Shown here: in pieces, positions 4,215 through 13,079 of the stretch | Position numbering within the stretch: position 1 is the first letter of the stretch | Layout of the letters: each line of letters begins with the position of its first letter | Source: a virus | Direction: 5' to 3' (one strand) | DNA length: 26,014 nucleotides | Virus record (IMG/VR): IMGVR_UViG_3300036670_000354 | Location: 1 to 26,014 of that record | Program-made: the position numbers and the translations under genes | Notes under the pieces: model-generated | Told to the model about the DNA's origin: nothing | Database searches by the model: none | What the model saw: the letters and a program-made list of their open reading frames with translations, nothing else

Positions 4215-4958
4215 ATGAAAATAAAGGATTGGTTTAAAACTAAAGATTTTGAGAAGGGTGTGCAGCTTTACAAGGCCACTTCGAAGCCAAAACGATCGGT
4301 TTTGAAGCAGCTTGAGAAAGGAAAGAGTAGAGCTTCTTTAAGCATGTTAATAAGAGAGCTTCGACAAGCTATGAAGTTTGATAAGCCTAATCTGGTTTAC
4401 AAACCCAAGCCTTCTATTTCTAAGCAGGAAAAGACATTCACAAAGCCATCACAGCCTATAGGGGTGAGAGAGGAGTCTGCCAAGCAATACTTTAAGTCTG
4501 TAGTATATGCAGAACTCCCTCAGGAGCTAAAATCCCGTTACAGGCTTTTAAAAGACTTCTTTTATGACATGTGTGATCTTAAGCTTGAGCTTAATGATCT
4601 GCCCGATAAAGCCGTGAATCAGGCCCTTAAAATTCAGATTGAAATCGATAAGATGGACCAAAAGAAACAACTCATCTGGGATGAGATTGACTATTGGAAA
4701 GCTACTGGCAAAATCCTAAAACAGGAAACTGACATTGATTTGAAAACGATGGACATGCAAAAGATTATCCTTAAGAAAACAAGCCTGCAATCTTCTGTCT
4801 ATCACATGAATTCTAGGCTGAAAAATTGGCAAACGCAATTAGAATCTTCAGAAGATACTGAACAGAAGAGGAATCTTGAAAGCCAGATCCATAGAACCAC
4901 CAATAAAAAACATAAAAATGAAATGACAATTAAACAGATAGAGGACTTTTTAGAATAA
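4215..4958 (+). CDS. Coiled-coil phage protein of unknown function
   Basis: A 247-residue, highly charged and mostly helical protein. Residues 1-55 are basic (D-W-F-K-T-K-D-F-E-K-G, then repeated Lys/Arg/Ser), 56-85 form a Pro/Lys linker, 90-150 are amphipathic helices, and about 165-247 look like a coiled coil (Q-K-I-I-L-K-K, then Q-T-Q-L-E-S-S and E-S-Q-I-H-R). There is no enzyme motif, signal peptide or membrane segment. It is a single-gene unit with its own TGTCCTTTTTT motif, so it is probably expressed with the structural genes. A basic N-terminus plus coiled coil would fit a DNA-binding or scaffolding role in the virion, but that is inference. Its TAA overlaps the A-run that forms the U-tract of the minus-strand RNA. 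Confidence 0.7.
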   Translation: MKIKDWFKTKDFEKGVQLYKATSKPKRSVLKQLEKGKSRASLSMLIRELRQAMKFDKPNLVYKPKPSISKQEKTFTKPSQPIGVREESAKQYFKSVVYAELPQELKSRYRLLKDFFYDMCDLKLELNDLPDKAVNQALKIQIEIDKMDQKKQLIWDEIDYWKATGKILKQETDIDLKTMDMQKIILKKTSLQSSVYHMNSRLKNWQTQLESSEDTEQKRNLESQIHRTTNKKHKNEMTIKQIEDFLE

Positions 4959-5074
4959 AAAAAAGCCCTCTGACGCTCATATAACTCTCACATCACATAA
5001 AAACGACCTCGCAGTCTGCCAGAGGGCTAAAGCCTTCTTGATTGCGAGGTCGTCCTATTTAGTAATGTGAGAGA
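4957..5074 (-). ncRNA. Putative pseudoknotted small RNA, minus strand
   Basis: Three perfect inverted repeats are interleaved here: A 4964-4972/5020-5028 (9 bp), B 4985-4993/5065-5073 (9 bp) and C 5003-5013/5043-5053 (11 bp, extendable to 14 with one G-U). C nests in B, while A joins the C loop to the far 3' end, so the fold is a pseudoknot. Read leftward, a TATATTTG box at 5085-5078 would start RNA at about 5073, exactly at the outer B arm, and the A arm is followed by eight U (4964-4957), giving a terminator-like end. That makes an RNA of about 115 nt. It contains no good reading frame. Seen: repeats, box and U-run. Inferred: that it is transcribed. A plus-strand leader structure for the methylase is the main alternative. 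Confidence 0.6.
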
Positions 5075-5077
5075 TAA

Positions 5078-5085
5078 CAAATATA
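5078..5085 (-). promoter_or_regulatory. Host-type -7 box for the minus-strand small RNA
   Basis: The minus strand reads TATATTTG, an exact match to the Bacteroidetes -7 consensus TAnnTTTG. The spacing puts the start at about 5073, the first base of the outer stem of the RNA. No clear -33 TTTG is seen upstream. Confidence 0.45.
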
Positions 5086-5095
5086 AATAAATACT

Positions 5096-6376
5096 ATGAG
5101 CGAAAAATTATTAGCACCATTAGAATGGCACAACGAAACCAGAAAAGTAAAGGATCTGGTTCCTTATGAATTCAACCCTCGAATTCTTACTGAGGAAAAA
5201 AAACAGAAATTAATCAATTCGATTGAGAAATTTAACCTGGCAGAAGTACCGGCGATCAACACCGACAACAAAATTATTGCAGGCCATCAAAGAATAAAAG
5301 TTCTGATGCTTCTCAACCGTGGAGAAGAAAATATTGATGTTCGTTTACCCAACAGGAGTCTAACAGAAGAGGAATTTAAGCAATACAACATCACCTCAAA
5401 CGTATCTGCAGGCTTTTGGGATGTAGATGTTTTGGAAGAGCATTTTGCAGATATAGATCTCGAAGACTTGGGTTTGAATCTAGATGATTTAGAGTTGCCC
5501 TCAGATTTAATTCCAGAAGACATGTCCGGAGAAGATGAAGGTGACTTTGATGCAGAGCCTCCAGTAGATCCTATTAGTGAAAAAGGTGACGTTTATATTT
5601 TAAAAAGCCTTCAAAAAAACTTAGAGCATAAAGTTGTGTGCGGAGATTCTACCGTAGAAGATCCCTATAAAGAATTATTTCAAAATGAAAAATGTAATCT
5701 AGTATTAACCGATCCACCATATAATGTTGACTACCAAGGAGGAAGTGATAAAAAAAGAGAGAAGATTCAAAATGATAAAATGGAAACTAACTCATTTTAT
5801 GATTTCTTACTACAATTCTATAAGCAAGCTCACAGCATTGCAGAACCAGGAGCCCCTGCTTATGTTTTTCACGCAGATACTGAAGGGGTGAATTTCAGAA
5901 AAGCATTTGTAGATTCTGGTTTTAAACTCTCTGAATGTTTGATTTGGAAAAAGAATTCAATCGTAATGTCAAGACAAGACTATCACTGGATCCATGAACC
6001 AATTTTATACGGATGGAAACTTGGAGCTGCACATAAGTGGTACACAGACAGAAAGCAGCAAACTGTTCTTGAATTTGATAGGCCTTTAAAAAGTGAATAC
6101 CACCCGACGATGAAGCCTATTGAGATGCTTTGCTATCTGATTAAAAACAGCTCTAAACAAAAAGATATTGTTTTTGATGGCTTCTTAGGTTCTGGATCCA
6201 CTCTAATTGCTTCAGAGAAATCTTGGAGAAATTGCAGAGGAATAGAAATTGGAGAAAACTATTGCGATGTTATTGTGAGAAGATGGGTTAAATATATGCA
6301 AGAGAATAAACTGAAATTTGAAGTAATAAAAAATGATAAAAAGTTAACTCAGCATGAAATTGAAGATTTTAAATGA
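5096..6376 (+). CDS. ParB-fused DNA methyltransferase (beta-class, N6_N4 type)
   Basis: A 426-residue two-domain enzyme. Residues about 15-110 are a ParB/Srx-like domain with F-N-P-R (26-29) and G-H-Q-R (63-66). An acidic linker (about 115-165) joins it to an SAM-dependent methyltransferase: motif IV D-P-P-Y-N at 206-210, H-P-T-M-K-P at 336-341, and the SAM-binding motif F-D-G-F-L-G-S-G-S-T at 360-369. Motif IV before motif I is the beta-class order; D-P-P-Y favours adenine-N6 but does not exclude cytosine-N4. In phages such orphan enzymes usually modify phage DNA to escape restriction, with the ParB part contributing DNA or nucleotide binding. It lacks the TGTCCTTTTTT motif, unlike the structural blocks, and its leader carries the pseudoknotted repeats. 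Confidence 0.93.
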   Translation: MSEKLLAPLEWHNETRKVKDLVPYEFNPRILTEEKKQKLINSIEKFNLAEVPAINTDNKIIAGHQRIKVLMLLNRGEENIDVRLPNRSLTEEEFKQYNITSNVSAGFWDVDVLEEHFADIDLEDLGLNLDDLELPSDLIPEDMSGEDEGDFDAEPPVDPISEKGDVYILKSLQKNLEHKVVCGDSTVEDPYKELFQNEKCNLVLTDPPYNVDYQGGSDKKREKIQNDKMETNSFYDFLLQFYKQAHSIAEPGAPAYVFHADTEGVNFRKAFVDSGFKLSECLIWKKNSIVMSRQDYHWIHEPILYGWKLGAAHKWYTDRKQQTVLEFDRPLKSEYHPTMKPIEMLCYLIKNSSKQKDIVFDGFLGSGSTLIASEKSWRNCRGIEIGENYCDVIVRRWVKYMQENKLKFEVIKNDKKLTQHEIEDFK

Positions 6377-6390
6377 GTAATCTAAATTAA

Positions 6391-6422
6391 AAACAGCGGC
6401 TAAATTGCCGCTGTTTTTTTTT
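6391..6422. terminator. Bidirectional terminator between convergent genes
   Basis: A perfect 10-bp stem, 6391-6400 against 6407-6416, with a 6-base loop, followed by a T-run to 6422 on the plus strand and preceded by A residues that give a shorter U-run on the minus strand. It ends the methylase transcript. The stop codon of the minus-strand gene (6402-6400) lies inside the stem and loop, so both units share it. Confidence 0.9.
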
Positions 6423-6708
6423 GTAACAAATAGCAAAACTTTTCTTTTGAAGGTAAAGTAATGTCTTCATCAATTTTTTCTTCTGGAACTGAAATCAAAA
6501 AGTTCTTAAATCCAAGTTGCTCCAAGCATTGGTAGACATCAGATTCATAGATATAATCTTCAGGAAGAATAGATATTATTTTTTTATAAATCTGTTTTAA
6601 CGACAACATTAAAGTGTCTTCATCGGTTTGAAATTGATTCTTTATGGGCTCAAAATTTTGCTGTAAAAATTGTAGAATTTCAGTTTCATAATCAGTTTTA
6701 ATGTTCAT
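6400..6708 (-). CDS. Small acidic orphan protein
   Basis: A 102-residue soluble, mostly helical protein, with no domain I recognise, signal peptide or membrane segment. Its N-terminal half has regular hydrophobic spacing (I-L-Q-F-L-Q-Q-N-F, then L-S-L-K-Q-I-Y-K-K-I-I-S-I-L) that suggests a compact helical bundle; the C-terminus is Lys-rich. It is a single-gene unit with a host-type -7 box (TACTTTTG at 6752-6745) and a shared terminator, and it lacks the TGTCCTTTTTT motif, so it is probably not a late gene. Its leader has CTCTCACATTA directly before the start codon, the same 11 bases as the 5' end of the putative RNA at 4957-5074. A regulator, anti-host or immunity factor would fit this setting, but this is a guess. 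Confidence 0.65.
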   Translation of the reverse strand: MNIKTDYETEILQFLQQNFEPIKNQFQTDEDTLMLSLKQIYKKIISILPEDYIYESDVYQCLEQLGFKNFLISVPEEKIDEDITLPSKEKFCYLLQKKTAAI

Positions 6709-6744
6709 AATGTGAGAGTTTTATATATTTTCTTTTTGTATTCT

Positions 6745-6752
6745 CAAAAGTA
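6745..6752 (-). promoter_or_regulatory. Host-type -7 box upstream of the 6400-6708 gene
   Basis: The minus strand reads TACTTTTG, matching TAnnTTTG. Transcription would start near 6738, about 30 bases before the start codon. No TTTG is seen at -33. An inverted repeat lies just upstream. Confidence 0.4.
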
Positions 6753-6754
6753 AA

Positions 6755-6803
6755 ACCTTAAATATTTGTTTTTGAGGGTTTTAAGGTCTGAAAACCTTTT
6801 TTT
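6755..6803. promoter_or_regulatory. Inverted repeat and overlapping small hairpin
   Basis: ACCTTAAA at 6755-6762 is the exact reverse complement of TTTAAGGT at 6780-6787, centred just upstream of the -7 box of the minus-strand gene, so it could be an operator. The second arm also pairs with 6794-6798 to make a 5-bp hairpin followed by seven T on the plus strand, a weak terminator shape. The two pairings are mutually exclusive. No plus-strand gene follows, so the operator reading is preferred, with low certainty. Confidence 0.25.
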
Positions 6804-6828
6804 AATTATCATTTCTTCACCATGATAA

Positions 6829-6851
6829 ACCGCCGTAACCTATACAGCGGT
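6829..6851. other. Hairpin downstream of the terminase operon
   Basis: ACCGC-C-GTA at 6829-6837 pairs with TAC-A-GCGGT at 6843-6851 with one mismatch and a 5-base loop. It lies 37 bases beyond the end of the terminase large-subunit gene. No U-run follows on the minus strand, so it may stabilise the mRNA 3' end rather than terminate. The rest of 6709-6887 shows no gene. Confidence 0.35.
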
Positions 6852-6887
6852 GACATGTGACGTTTGAAATATCATGCAAATATGAAT

Positions 6888-8408
6888 TTAGAATGAGCTC
6901 ATCGGTAAATCTTCTGGCTTTACGTTTCTTCCAATAAACTTCTCCCAGAACATTTCAAAGATTGGATAGTCAAAGGTATCAGACAGATGCGTTGCGTGTT
7001 CTTGGTCTACACCTTTTCGCTGCTCAGACCTCTTATCTTTCTCAAGGCCTCTTCCTCTATCGTATGCCTCGGCATGCTCCATCGATACAATAAGGTTTGG
7101 ACAGTTGGCTTTGTTAATTCTAATCTTAGGGAGATATTTTCCTTCATCTTTCAGCATCTTATTTAAGAGCCTAAACTTATCAATGTAGTTTGGATTGGTC
7201 CCGGTCGTCATATTATATACCGTCCACCCTTTGCTCTGCAGAAGCTCCTTAGCTTGATCTGCAAATGTCATCTTTGAGTTAGCTGTTCTATTGTTTCCTG
7301 TTCGATCATAATAGAAGTAGATATCTTTACACAAATGCGAGCTGTAATAAGGAATGAACTCTTCAATGAATAAGTGATCTAATATCTTAGGTGACTTCAC
7401 AAAGAATTCCTTGAGCACGTACCACACATCGTCCTGCTGTTGATGTACAGTCATAGCATTTATATTGGCACCCCAGTCCACAGAAATTATCAATGGCTCA
7501 TTCTTAATTACATCGAGATCTTGCTTACAATTAAAAGTCTTACCAGATATATCAGTAAGTGGTAAGCCTTCTAGATAGGAGTTATCAAAGTTTGTGTAAT
7601 AGTGATCCTCTGTAAGCTGGGGGTAAAAGCCGTCTGTAATTTCTTTAGGCCTTTTGTTAAGCATCTCAGCATCATAGATAAGATCACTAGAATAAGATTG
7701 CTTCATGTATTGAAAATAATCAGGCCTTACGTTGTCGAGATTCCAATGCGCGGTGGCTGAATGAAAGAAATACTCATCAGGATGCTTCTTGGCCAGATCT
7801 TCGCCATTGGTGAACCACTTCCCTTTTTTGGTCAGAGGTGTAGAGGATATATAAGTCTCGCTAAGTAAGAAAGGATTATCACCGTGGATAGCAGATTTGG
7901 CTATTGCTCTGTTAGTGTTCTTGACGTTAATGGCTAACTTATCATTATCCAATAGTCCAGCTTCATCTGCAAGGATGCCGGATGAGTTAATACCACGACC
8001 ACCGTTTGAAGAGTTTGGATTGTCTAGGCCTACTAATTGAAACACAGTTCCATTGCTAAAATGTATGATGTTCTTCCAGTGATTTGGCTTTTCATAAGGC
8101 ATTTCAAAACCCATCCTTTTACCTTGGCTAGATCCAACCACATAGTCTACATCCTCATATATCCCGAAAAACTCCAGAGCTTTTTTAGTCGATTTGAATG
8201 TATTACTTAATACCTGAGCGTAGGTGTTACCCACTAGAATAAAGGTGGCTCTAGGCATATACTTAGCCATCATGAGCATGAAATAAGCCAGAATGGTCGA
8301 TTTTCCCGTTCCTCTCCCCCACTCCAAGAACTTAATCTTTTGCTTGGCCATCACAGCGATGATCTGAGGCAAATTGAGAGTTACTTTTTTTCTACCTCTA
8401 GCTTTCAT
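6888..8408 (-). CDS. terL: Terminase large subunit (packaging ATPase/nuclease)
   Basis: A 506-residue DNA-packaging motor. The N-terminal ATPase has Walker A G-R-G-T-G-K-S-T at 31-38 and Walker B I-L-A-D-E-A at 145-150, with a coupling-type S-S-T-P near 188-191. The C-terminal RuvC/RNase H-like nuclease shows the expected acids: Asp311 in I-S-V-D-W-G, Asp368 in Y-Y-D-R-T-G, and Asp477/Asp480 in S-D-T-F-D-Y. It pumps DNA into the prohead and makes the genome cut. The start is at 8408, overlapping the small subunit by 11 bases. It is transcribed leftward, opposite to the other structural blocks, from the motif at 9031-9041. Confidence 0.95.
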   Translation of the reverse strand: MKARGRKKVTLNLPQIIAVMAKQKIKFLEWGRGTGKSTILAYFMLMMAKYMPRATFILVGNTYAQVLSNTFKSTKKALEFFGIYEDVDYVVGSSQGKRMGFEMPYEKPNHWKNIIHFSNGTVFQLVGLDNPNSSNGGRGINSSGILADEAGLLDNDKLAINVKNTNRAIAKSAIHGDNPFLLSETYISSTPLTKKGKWFTNGEDLAKKHPDEYFFHSATAHWNLDNVRPDYFQYMKQSYSSDLIYDAEMLNKRPKEITDGFYPQLTEDHYYTNFDNSYLEGLPLTDISGKTFNCKQDLDVIKNEPLIISVDWGANINAMTVHQQQDDVWYVLKEFFVKSPKILDHLFIEEFIPYYSSHLCKDIYFYYDRTGNNRTANSKMTFADQAKELLQSKGWTVYNMTTGTNPNYIDKFRLLNKMLKDEGKYLPKIRINKANCPNLIVSMEHAEAYDRGRGLEKDKRSEQRKGVDQEHATHLSDTFDYPIFEMFWEKFIGRNVKPEDLPMSSF

Positions 8409-11780: not shown

Positions 11781-13079
11781 ATGCCGTTAACTAGGCCTTC
11801 ATCCTCACTCAAGGAAAAGATAAATAAAAATCCTGTAATCAATAGGCTCGAGCAAGCAACGGCTCAAGACTTTATTGAGCTTTGCAATCTAATTAATGAA
11901 TATGCAGATTTTATTGAGGACCTATTTGATGAAACCCATAGAAGCAATTTTCTAGGATATTACGGTAACCTGTCTCTTTTGCAAGCCAGATACCCCAACC
12001 CTCCAGAAGACTCTTTTGGAATAATAGTTAGTATAGCGAACGATCCAGAATCAATATACAGATATATAGGAGGATCTTATGTTCTTTTGGGAGGAAGCCA
12101 AAATCTTCTTTTCTATTCTCAAGTATCGAACTTTCCTGTCACAGGGCAAATGGATAAACTATATATAACTAGAGCTCAAAAGAAAATATATGCATGGTGG
12201 GATAGCCAATATCACTACTTAGGGAGCTTTGAGTTCACCATTGATAATGCTCTAGATGAGAACAGCACCAACCCTTTACAAAACAAGGTACTTTTCGAAA
12301 AGTTTCAAGAAATAATAGAACTTATTCAGGCTTTAGATAGCGAAAATGGAATAGTCTACATTTCCCAATGGGATGCGAAATTAAATACTCCTTTCCTTAC
12401 AGATGCAAATGCGTCAGAAGCTAGAAATGCATATATATGTACGGTAGAATTTACACTTTTTGGTATAGAATGGAAACCAGGAGATTATTTAATTTATGAT
12501 AATGAAGGAAAAATATTTAGAGAGCCTAACCCACTTTTAGGAATTTTATCCGCAGTAGCTTATAGCAATAGTTATAATGATTTATTGGATCTACCTGATT
12601 TGTCTGAAATAATCGAAAATGGCCTATCGGCTTATGAAGTATGGCTGGCAGATGGCAATGAGGGATCATCGCTACAAGATTATTATCTATTTATTACTGG
12701 ACCACAAGGAAATAAAGGTGATGACGGTGACACTGGTTCACAAGGACCTAAAGGATCTAAAGGTGATGACGGTGACACTGGTTCACAAGGACCTAAAGGA
12801 TCTAAAGGTGATGACGGTGACACTGGTTCACAAGGACCTCAAGGCTCCCAAGGACCACAAGGAACTAAAGGTGATGACGGTGACACTGGCTCCCAAGGGC
12901 CTAAAGGAGATCAAGGAGATCCTAATCCTAACGCCTTAGATAGCTCAAAGTTAGGCGGTAAATTGCCAGCCTTTTATGCGGCAAAAACTAATTATGCCAC
13001 ACCCACTATAGGCGGTACAATCAAAATGAGAATAAACGGATCAGATTTATTTATCAGTAACAACGGAACAAACCCTTAA
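11781..13079 (+). CDS. Collagen-repeat tail fibre protein
   Basis: A 432-residue putative fibre. Residues 1-60 are helical (I-N-R-L-E-Q-A-T-A-Q-D-F-I-E-L), about 60-150 are beta-rich with G-G-S-Y-V-L-L-G-G, and about 306-380 are Gly-X-Y collagen repeats (G-D-D-G-D-T-G-S-Q-G-P-K) that would wind into a triple helix. The C-terminus (S-K-L-G-G-K-L-P-A-F-Y-A, then P-T-I-G-G-T-I-K-M) resembles the end of many phage fibres, where trimerisation and receptor contact occur. A segment with L-D-E-N-S-T-N-P-L-Q-N-K-V near 157 is another common fibre motif. It is the first gene of the adsorption/lysis block. The collagen section is encoded by nearly identical DNA repeats. Confidence 0.85.
   Translation: MPLTRPSSSLKEKINKNPVINRLEQATAQDFIELCNLINEYADFIEDLFDETHRSNFLGYYGNLSLLQARYPNPPEDSFGIIVSIANDPESIYRYIGGSYVLLGGSQNLLFYSQVSNFPVTGQMDKLYITRAQKKIYAWWDSQYHYLGSFEFTIDNALDENSTNPLQNKVLFEKFQEIIELIQALDSENGIVYISQWDAKLNTPFLTDANASEARNAYICTVEFTLFGIEWKPGDYLIYDNEGKIFREPNPLLGILSAVAYSNSYNDLLDLPDLSEIIENGLSAYEVWLADGNEGSSLQDYYLFITGPQGNKGDDGDTGSQGPKGSKGDDGDTGSQGPKGSKGDDGDTGSQGPQGSQGPQGTKGDDGDTGSQGPKGDQGDPNPNALDSSKLGGKLPAFYAAKTNYATPTIGGTIKMRINGSDLFISNNGTNP
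12714..12911 (+). repeat. 45-bp tandem repeats encoding collagen-like Gly-X-Y
   Basis: Copies start at 12714, 12759, 12804 and 12867. The first two are identical over 45 bases, the third differs near its end, and an 18-base insert (12849-12866) precedes a slightly diverged fourth. Each unit encodes 15 residues, five Gly-X-Y triplets, so gain or loss of a unit keeps the frame and changes fibre length. Confidence 0.92.

Follow-up and report, generated by a model that had tools for sequence, protein, structure and literature searches.

The Com protein of phage Mu activates translation of mom via a hairpin at its start codon (PMC6483171), and in transposable phages this com/mom pair controls the DNA-modification gene that lies at the right end. 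In SuMu, a Mu-like phage of Haemophilus, an annotated com gene precedes a D12 methylase gene homologous to those described below. Flavobacterium phage fF4 (PMC7761591) and Hankyphage (PMC12135933) are also described as transposable phages, and in each a modification gene occupies the place of mom, at the right end or close to it. PUL operons of Bacteroides are repressed by antisense RNAs divergent from them (PMC10994844).

The locus described here lies in a stretch of viral DNA of 26,014 nucleotides (IMG/VR record IMGVR_UViG_3300036670_000354, positions 1 to 26,014; hereafter the window). Comparative evidence shows that it encodes a member of a new, widely conserved family of structured RNAs, predicted to be transcribed from the minus strand. 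The RNA occupies the same upstream slot as com, but it is an opposite-strand RNA gene where Mu has a zinc-finger protein, and it also occurs in phages where no Mu transposase was detected, that of the window being one. It resembles the PUL antisense RNAs in being a short RNA opposite an operon leader, in a sense–antisense pair (PMC10994844); those RNAs, however, flank sugar-uptake operons, whereas the present one is carried by phages, folds into a covarying pseudoknot and accompanies modification genes. The ToxI RNA of type III toxin–antitoxin systems is likewise a small pseudoknotted RNA adjoining its partner gene; in contrast to it, the present RNA has no tandem repeats, lies on the opposite strand and not in its partner's own leader, and is partnered by methyltransferases, thymidylate-synthase-like proteins or Mom instead of an RNase. 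With the phi29-type pRNA (RF00044) it shares the character of a small structured phage RNA with loop complementarity, but it has no Rfam match and is unlinked to the terminase gene across the family. A packaging RNA, the first thought because a terminase lies nearby, was rejected, as most loci are away from the terminase and no Rfam match was found. As to retrons, no reverse transcriptase was seen next to the RNA, either in the window or in the inspected loci, except for the Hankyphage DGR reverse transcriptase, two genes away.

Architecture of the RNA in the window

The RNA is about 115 nt long (4957-5073, minus strand, from the predicted +1 through the end of the U-run). On one side is an open reading frame without Pfam or PHROG match (4215-4958, plus strand); on the other, faced by the RNA, is a co-directional gene for a ParB-domain N6/N4 DNA methyltransferase (5096-6376, plus strand; Pfam N6_N4_Mtase, E 2.7e-27; PHROG DNA methyltransferase, E 4.5e-129). 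A transcript reading through from the upstream gene would include the complement of the RNA. The putative Bacteroidota sigma-A -7 box, TATATTTG, is found at 5078-5085 (minus strand), with consensus and position taken from PMC9723704. The box has been mapped at -12 to -5 in F. psychrophilum (PMC9723704) and, if it is so placed here, the predicted +1 falls on the first base of P1, at 5073.

Comparative evidence shows the predicted RNA to have the shape of a long rod, built of P1, the AU-rich P1b and P2, and to form P3 by base pairing between the apical loop and the 3′ tail of the same molecule; all the elements that follow are on the minus strand. P1, the outer stem, is formed by a 5′ arm CTCTCACATTAC (5062-5073) and a 3′ arm GTGATGTGAGAG (4985-4996), with 9 perfect base pairs or 12 when one U.G is counted. 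P1b is weak in the window, and the central stem P2 has 11 base pairs between ACGACCTCGCA (5043-5053) and TGCGAGGTCGT (5003-5013). The loop-to-tail helix P3, of 9 base pairs, joins element A, AGCCCTCTG, on the 3′ side of the apical loop (5020-5028), to element B, CAGAGGGCT, directly ahead of the U-run (4964-4972). The run of eight U (4957-4964) is a putative terminator tail; its first T also takes part in P3, and it overlaps the stop codon of the plus-strand upstream gene. The box, the predicted start at the outer stem, the perfect repeats of 9, 9 and 11 bp and the U8 end, all listed in an earlier note on this DNA, were found again on the minus strand. The minus-strand fold has an energy of -51.1 kcal/mol (z -5.8), which none of 200 dinucleotide shuffles equalled.

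Across the family, the linker between P1 and P3 has about 9-14 nt and the rod 22-32 bp. With so short a linker and so long a rod, an intramolecular P3 would need a bent rod, to which a head-to-tail dimer is the alternative. Two additional elements may compete with P3. Element A0, GAAGGC (5032-5037), placed from the sequence and from RNAfold predictions for family members, can form a weak apical hairpin with element A in competition with the pseudoknot. Element C, AGTCCTCT (4940-4947), detected by a repeat search, is a downstream copy complementary to B and would compete with A for it, given transcription read-through; across the family, B:C complementarity exceeds that of shuffles (median score 16 vs 12). 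As C is complementary to B and A is pairable with A0, the pairings of A and of B are mutually exclusive. The earlier note, drawn from the window sequence alone, had missed element C, and the link to DNA-modification genes was not visible to it.

A widespread RNA family

Rfam gave no match at gathering score for the window and 17 further loci, and at relaxed E-values only miRNA and sRNA models appeared, far under threshold; the earlier note, too, had recognised no known family. A nucleotide search of phage records with the gap returned chance matches only, because the primary sequence diverges fast. A search based on the methyltransferase, on the other hand, yielded 10 distinct phages or prophages in which this gap holds the RNA, including prophages of Mesonia sp. 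HuA40, Mesonia aestuariivivens and Zunongwangia atlantica. The first covariance model (R1), trained on seven relatives with the window left out, recovers the window at E 1.3e-5, as well as other left-out loci (L046, E 1.4e-11; L007, E 1.8e-4). The second model (R2), whose training set includes the window, gives E 4.7e-14 for it. R1 matches were found in 10 of 397 genomes of the family of genome G002 and R2 matches in 12 of 396 genomes of the order, and among 395 genomes from the whole phylum credible matches were confined to those already known from the order search. R2 also matches 9 of the 34 viral contigs containing the loop pattern, and 68 of 80 contigs encoding a thymidylate-synthase-like (TS) protein, with the RNA upstream on the opposite strand. 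Two of the 12 TS contigs that R2 missed, L255 and L238, have a diverged copy recognisable by eye; that of L238 (1240-1520) is in the same place and has a wholly different P3, GCCCAAGG/CCUUGGGC. Matches at L069 883-1002 (E 0.34) and L152/L164 (E 5e-4) were rejected on inspection as chance, being in coding sequence or a simple repeat. In total, about 110 loci were found, 85 of them left once near-identical copies were removed. One genome, G258, has two copies, one before a D12 gene (L120:1501-1622) and one before a TS-like gene (L126:83-198), with near-identical downstream flanks.

Among named phages, the RNA is present in Hankyphage of Bacteroides (p00, BK010646, E 3.1e-8; jmh43_hp, E 2.2e-8), in BX-TP2 and in phage fF4 of F. 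columnare (MN850656, E 1.7e-10). Many phages of Bacteroidota carry it; their hosts live in soil, sea, fish and gut, and Hankyphage, common in the gut, is among them. The D12 methyltransferase of fF4 (L282:1498-1962) is annotated at 154 residues, about half the usual length.

The fold is kept by covariation. A set of 68 members was aligned with the covariance model, since MAFFT misaligns P1 and P2. In this set, 90.1% of the cells are paired, compared with 63.1% in shuffles, and there are 692 double-change cells vs 222 in shuffles and 80-168 with slid partners. The covariation score is 0.579, vs 0.157 when shuffled and at most 0.110 with slid partners, and the covarying pairs number 11 of 12 in P1, 9 of 9 in P2 and 7 of 10 in P3. 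Pair counts from such an alignment lean to the model, but P3 lies outside the model and is also found on a plain alignment: RNAalifold, run on eleven rows aligned with MAFFT, picks the P3 helix with 10 pairs, 4 of them compensatory. A strong loop-to-tail P3 with matched arms occurs in all 85 non-redundant RNAs, and the arm sequences are often private to one member, as in GUCCUCCAAC/GUUGGAGGAC, GCCCCCGG/CCGGGGGC and GCCUUCCAAC/GUUGGAAGGC. The helices are therefore maintained in related phages by compensatory changes, the outcome on which the earlier note had staked its proposal. A conserved kissing loop (YUNR) was also looked for by eye and found no consistent support.

As read from the sequences, exact TAnnTTTG is present in 83 of the 85 members, with TTTG alone in 1 more, and in 69 of 85 the pseudoknot is followed by four or more U in a row. 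The spacing of TAnnTTTG is near-constant, 2-5 nt ahead of the first model position. The U-run is mostly missing in ParB-MTase phages, where the stop codon of the neighbouring gene overlaps, and the earlier suggestion that the terminator itself would be a pseudoknot is general only in part.

Association with DNA-modification genes

The TS set was chosen by gene, and therefore only the 31 loci found by the RNA model or the DNA pattern alone support the association statistic, which rests on them. In 29 of these 31 unbiased loci a recognised modification-type gene lies at the 5′ end of the RNA, and in the other two a putative one; the order and orientation of the RNA are fixed in 31 of 31. The gene is a D12 methyltransferase or close homologue in L116, L118, L120, L124, L142, L145, L166 and L184, a ParB-MTase in L117 and L046/L119, and a TS-like gene in L121-L123, L125, L126, L137, L139-L141, L144, L146, L147, L167, L171, L186, L190 and L194. 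It is a C5 cytosine methylase in L185, Mom in L143/L160, and an ABC-ATPase/GNAT cassette of no known function in L138/L154 and L188. The Mom homologue (L160:887-1624, plus strand; PF25680, E 3.3e-64) belongs to a Flavobacteriales genome and has the RNA ahead of it. The ABC-ATPase/GNAT cassettes are behind the RNA at L154:8239-10015 and L188:4756-5882 (both plus strand), the former also with a formyltransferase; both match a PHROG of no known function (phrog_11143 in L154), and they are candidates for a DNA-modification cassette of a new kind.

In the inspected loci the upstream gene, wherever visible, runs the same way as the modification gene, so that the RNA is antisense inside an operon-like array. 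The family thus occupies the opposite strand of the gap that separates a late phage gene from a DNA-modification gene or operon. The 5′ end of the RNA is usually 20-50 nt from the start of the modification gene, without overlap of the start codon in most loci. In the TS set, the RNA is 18-53 nt ahead of the TS gene in 33 loci, and most of the others have the order RNA-D12-TS. In 14 GC-richer, Hankyphage-like loci of this set (L249 by layout only), a small HTH, Mor-like protein comes first; in L251, L257, L269, L270 and similar loci this first gene encodes 80 residues, and its product is possibly a late activator of the modification operon. In close relatives lacking the RNA in the gap, the methyltransferase start abuts or overlaps the upstream gene. 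One of them is L006, where the two abut at 1300-1349 and the terminase is 81% identical to that of the window phage. At L163, regular repeats resembling a CRISPR array (5248-7435) lie upstream of the TS gene and the prophage end.

Mu-type transposase traces were detected in 5 of 19 records tested; no Mu transposase was found in the window record, which may be a fragment. The RNA was not found in SuMu, and no com-like ORF was seen between the RNA and the gene in the loci inspected.

Proposed antisense control

The com slot of SuMu, the Com/mom control of Mu, the antisense RNAs of PUL operons and the presence of this RNA in the matching slot lead us to propose, with confidence that stands at about an even balance, that it is a cis-encoded antisense regulator of the late modification gene, in the place of Com. 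The RNA would be made from a host sigma-A-type promoter active in the lysogen and, together with its transcription toward the oncoming late operon, would silence the modification gene by base pairing to the leader present in every read-through mRNA. That plus-strand leader would itself form a stable rod ahead of the start codon. The pseudoknot and the U-run would give the RNA a compact, terminated and stable 3′ end, and strong late transcription in the lytic cycle would override the silencing. The RNA would thereby fill, by antisense, the role that Com and the mom mRNA hairpin have in Mu.

Some observations count against this proposal. The RNA is off the start codon in most loci, and in the 14 TS-group loci the first gene is that of the HTH protein and not that of a modification enzyme. 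In addition, a purely antisense RNA could do without a conserved pseudoknot, and the fold thus points to another partner or to a role in trans. The strongest rival is in fact a trans-acting phage RNA, for example in counter-defence or as a sponge or protein decoy, that shares a single anti-defence cassette with the anti-restriction modification genes and does not regulate them. The retention of fold and pseudoknot while the neighbouring gene family changes completely speaks for this explanation, as does the character of a free-standing predicted RNA gene with its own host-type promoter box. We nevertheless hold it to be unlikely: a mere island partner should vary in order and strand, whereas both are fixed in the 31 unbiased loci, the 5′ end always being beside the modification operon, and the sequence of P3 is not conserved, so that no universal seed is visible.

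Strand of the functional RNA

The rod folds on both strands, with a family mean of -49.4 kcal/mol on the plus strand vs -44.4 kcal/mol on the minus strand; the window stems reach -49.5 on the plus strand (z -8.0 vs dinucleotide shuffles). The earlier note had assigned the whole structure to one strand only. The box, the pseudoknot and the U-run are indeed confined to the minus strand, but for the stems the plus strand folds just as well. In P3, read on the minus strand, there are 87 G.U vs 18 A.C cells among 68 sequences, an asymmetry which shows selection on the pseudoknot in the minus-strand RNA. The rod has 61 G.U vs 84 A.C cells in the same reading and number of sequences, an absence of strand bias, although misalignment where P2 meets the loop may have added to the A.C cells. 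An overall minus-strand G.U excess (69:24, 21 sequences) is withdrawn for the rod, the 68 sequences upholding it for P3 only. Read most simply, the rod is important on both strands, as it would be in sense–antisense pairs; its lack of bias fits selection on both transcripts and weakens the minus-strand-only claim. A rod without G.U bias, with the opposite strand folding slightly better, is also to be counted against antisense control.

These data bear on a rival in which the function lies with the leader of the modification mRNA, on the plus strand, as a translation-control hairpin like the mom TIS of Mu, and the minus-strand features are secondary. The rod does fold slightly better on the plus strand, just ahead of the start codon, and Mu mom is under such a hairpin together with Com (PMC6483171). 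The P3 asymmetry favours the minus strand, however, and the position of TAnnTTTG is near-fixed with respect to P1 while the distance to the ATG varies; the U-run is a minus-strand feature too. We regard this rival as quite improbable. Transcriptional interference alone, with the modification gene insulated by a divergent promoter and terminator and with an inert RNA product, would account for the strong conservation of a promoter box that faces the oncoming late operon, but it appears very unlikely given the 692 compensatory cells, pseudoknot included, which indicate selection on the RNA product. A DNA element (a cruciform, an inverted-repeat insertion, or a packaging or transposition site) could explain nested inverted repeats that fold on both strands, yet it is barely credible in view of the P3 G.U asymmetry, the near-fixed promoter spacing, the U-run and the fixed link to modification genes and not to genome ends.

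Implications of the association

A further reading is one which we put forward tentatively and with somewhat more doubt than belief: the RNA may be the counterpart of Com in Bacteroidota phages, timing by strand-switching (A:A0 or A:B, and B:A or B:C) the switch-on of the downstream modification enzyme. Were this so, the RNA would be a genomic beacon for unrecognised phage DNA modifications. The family also makes the timing by phages of potentially harmful DNA modification testable outside Mu, in cultured lysogens for which stranded RNA-seq exists. The family is undescribed and deeply conserved, in phages of a main phylum of the human gut, soil and sea, and one carrier, Hankyphage, has been described as globally ubiquitous. 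Since the RNA marks about six kinds of DNA-modification module, it can be used to find modification enzymes that have escaped recognition. Elsewhere in the window, the gene at 11781-13079 (plus strand) probably encodes a tail fibre with collagen-like repeats, KGSKGDDGDTGSQGP.
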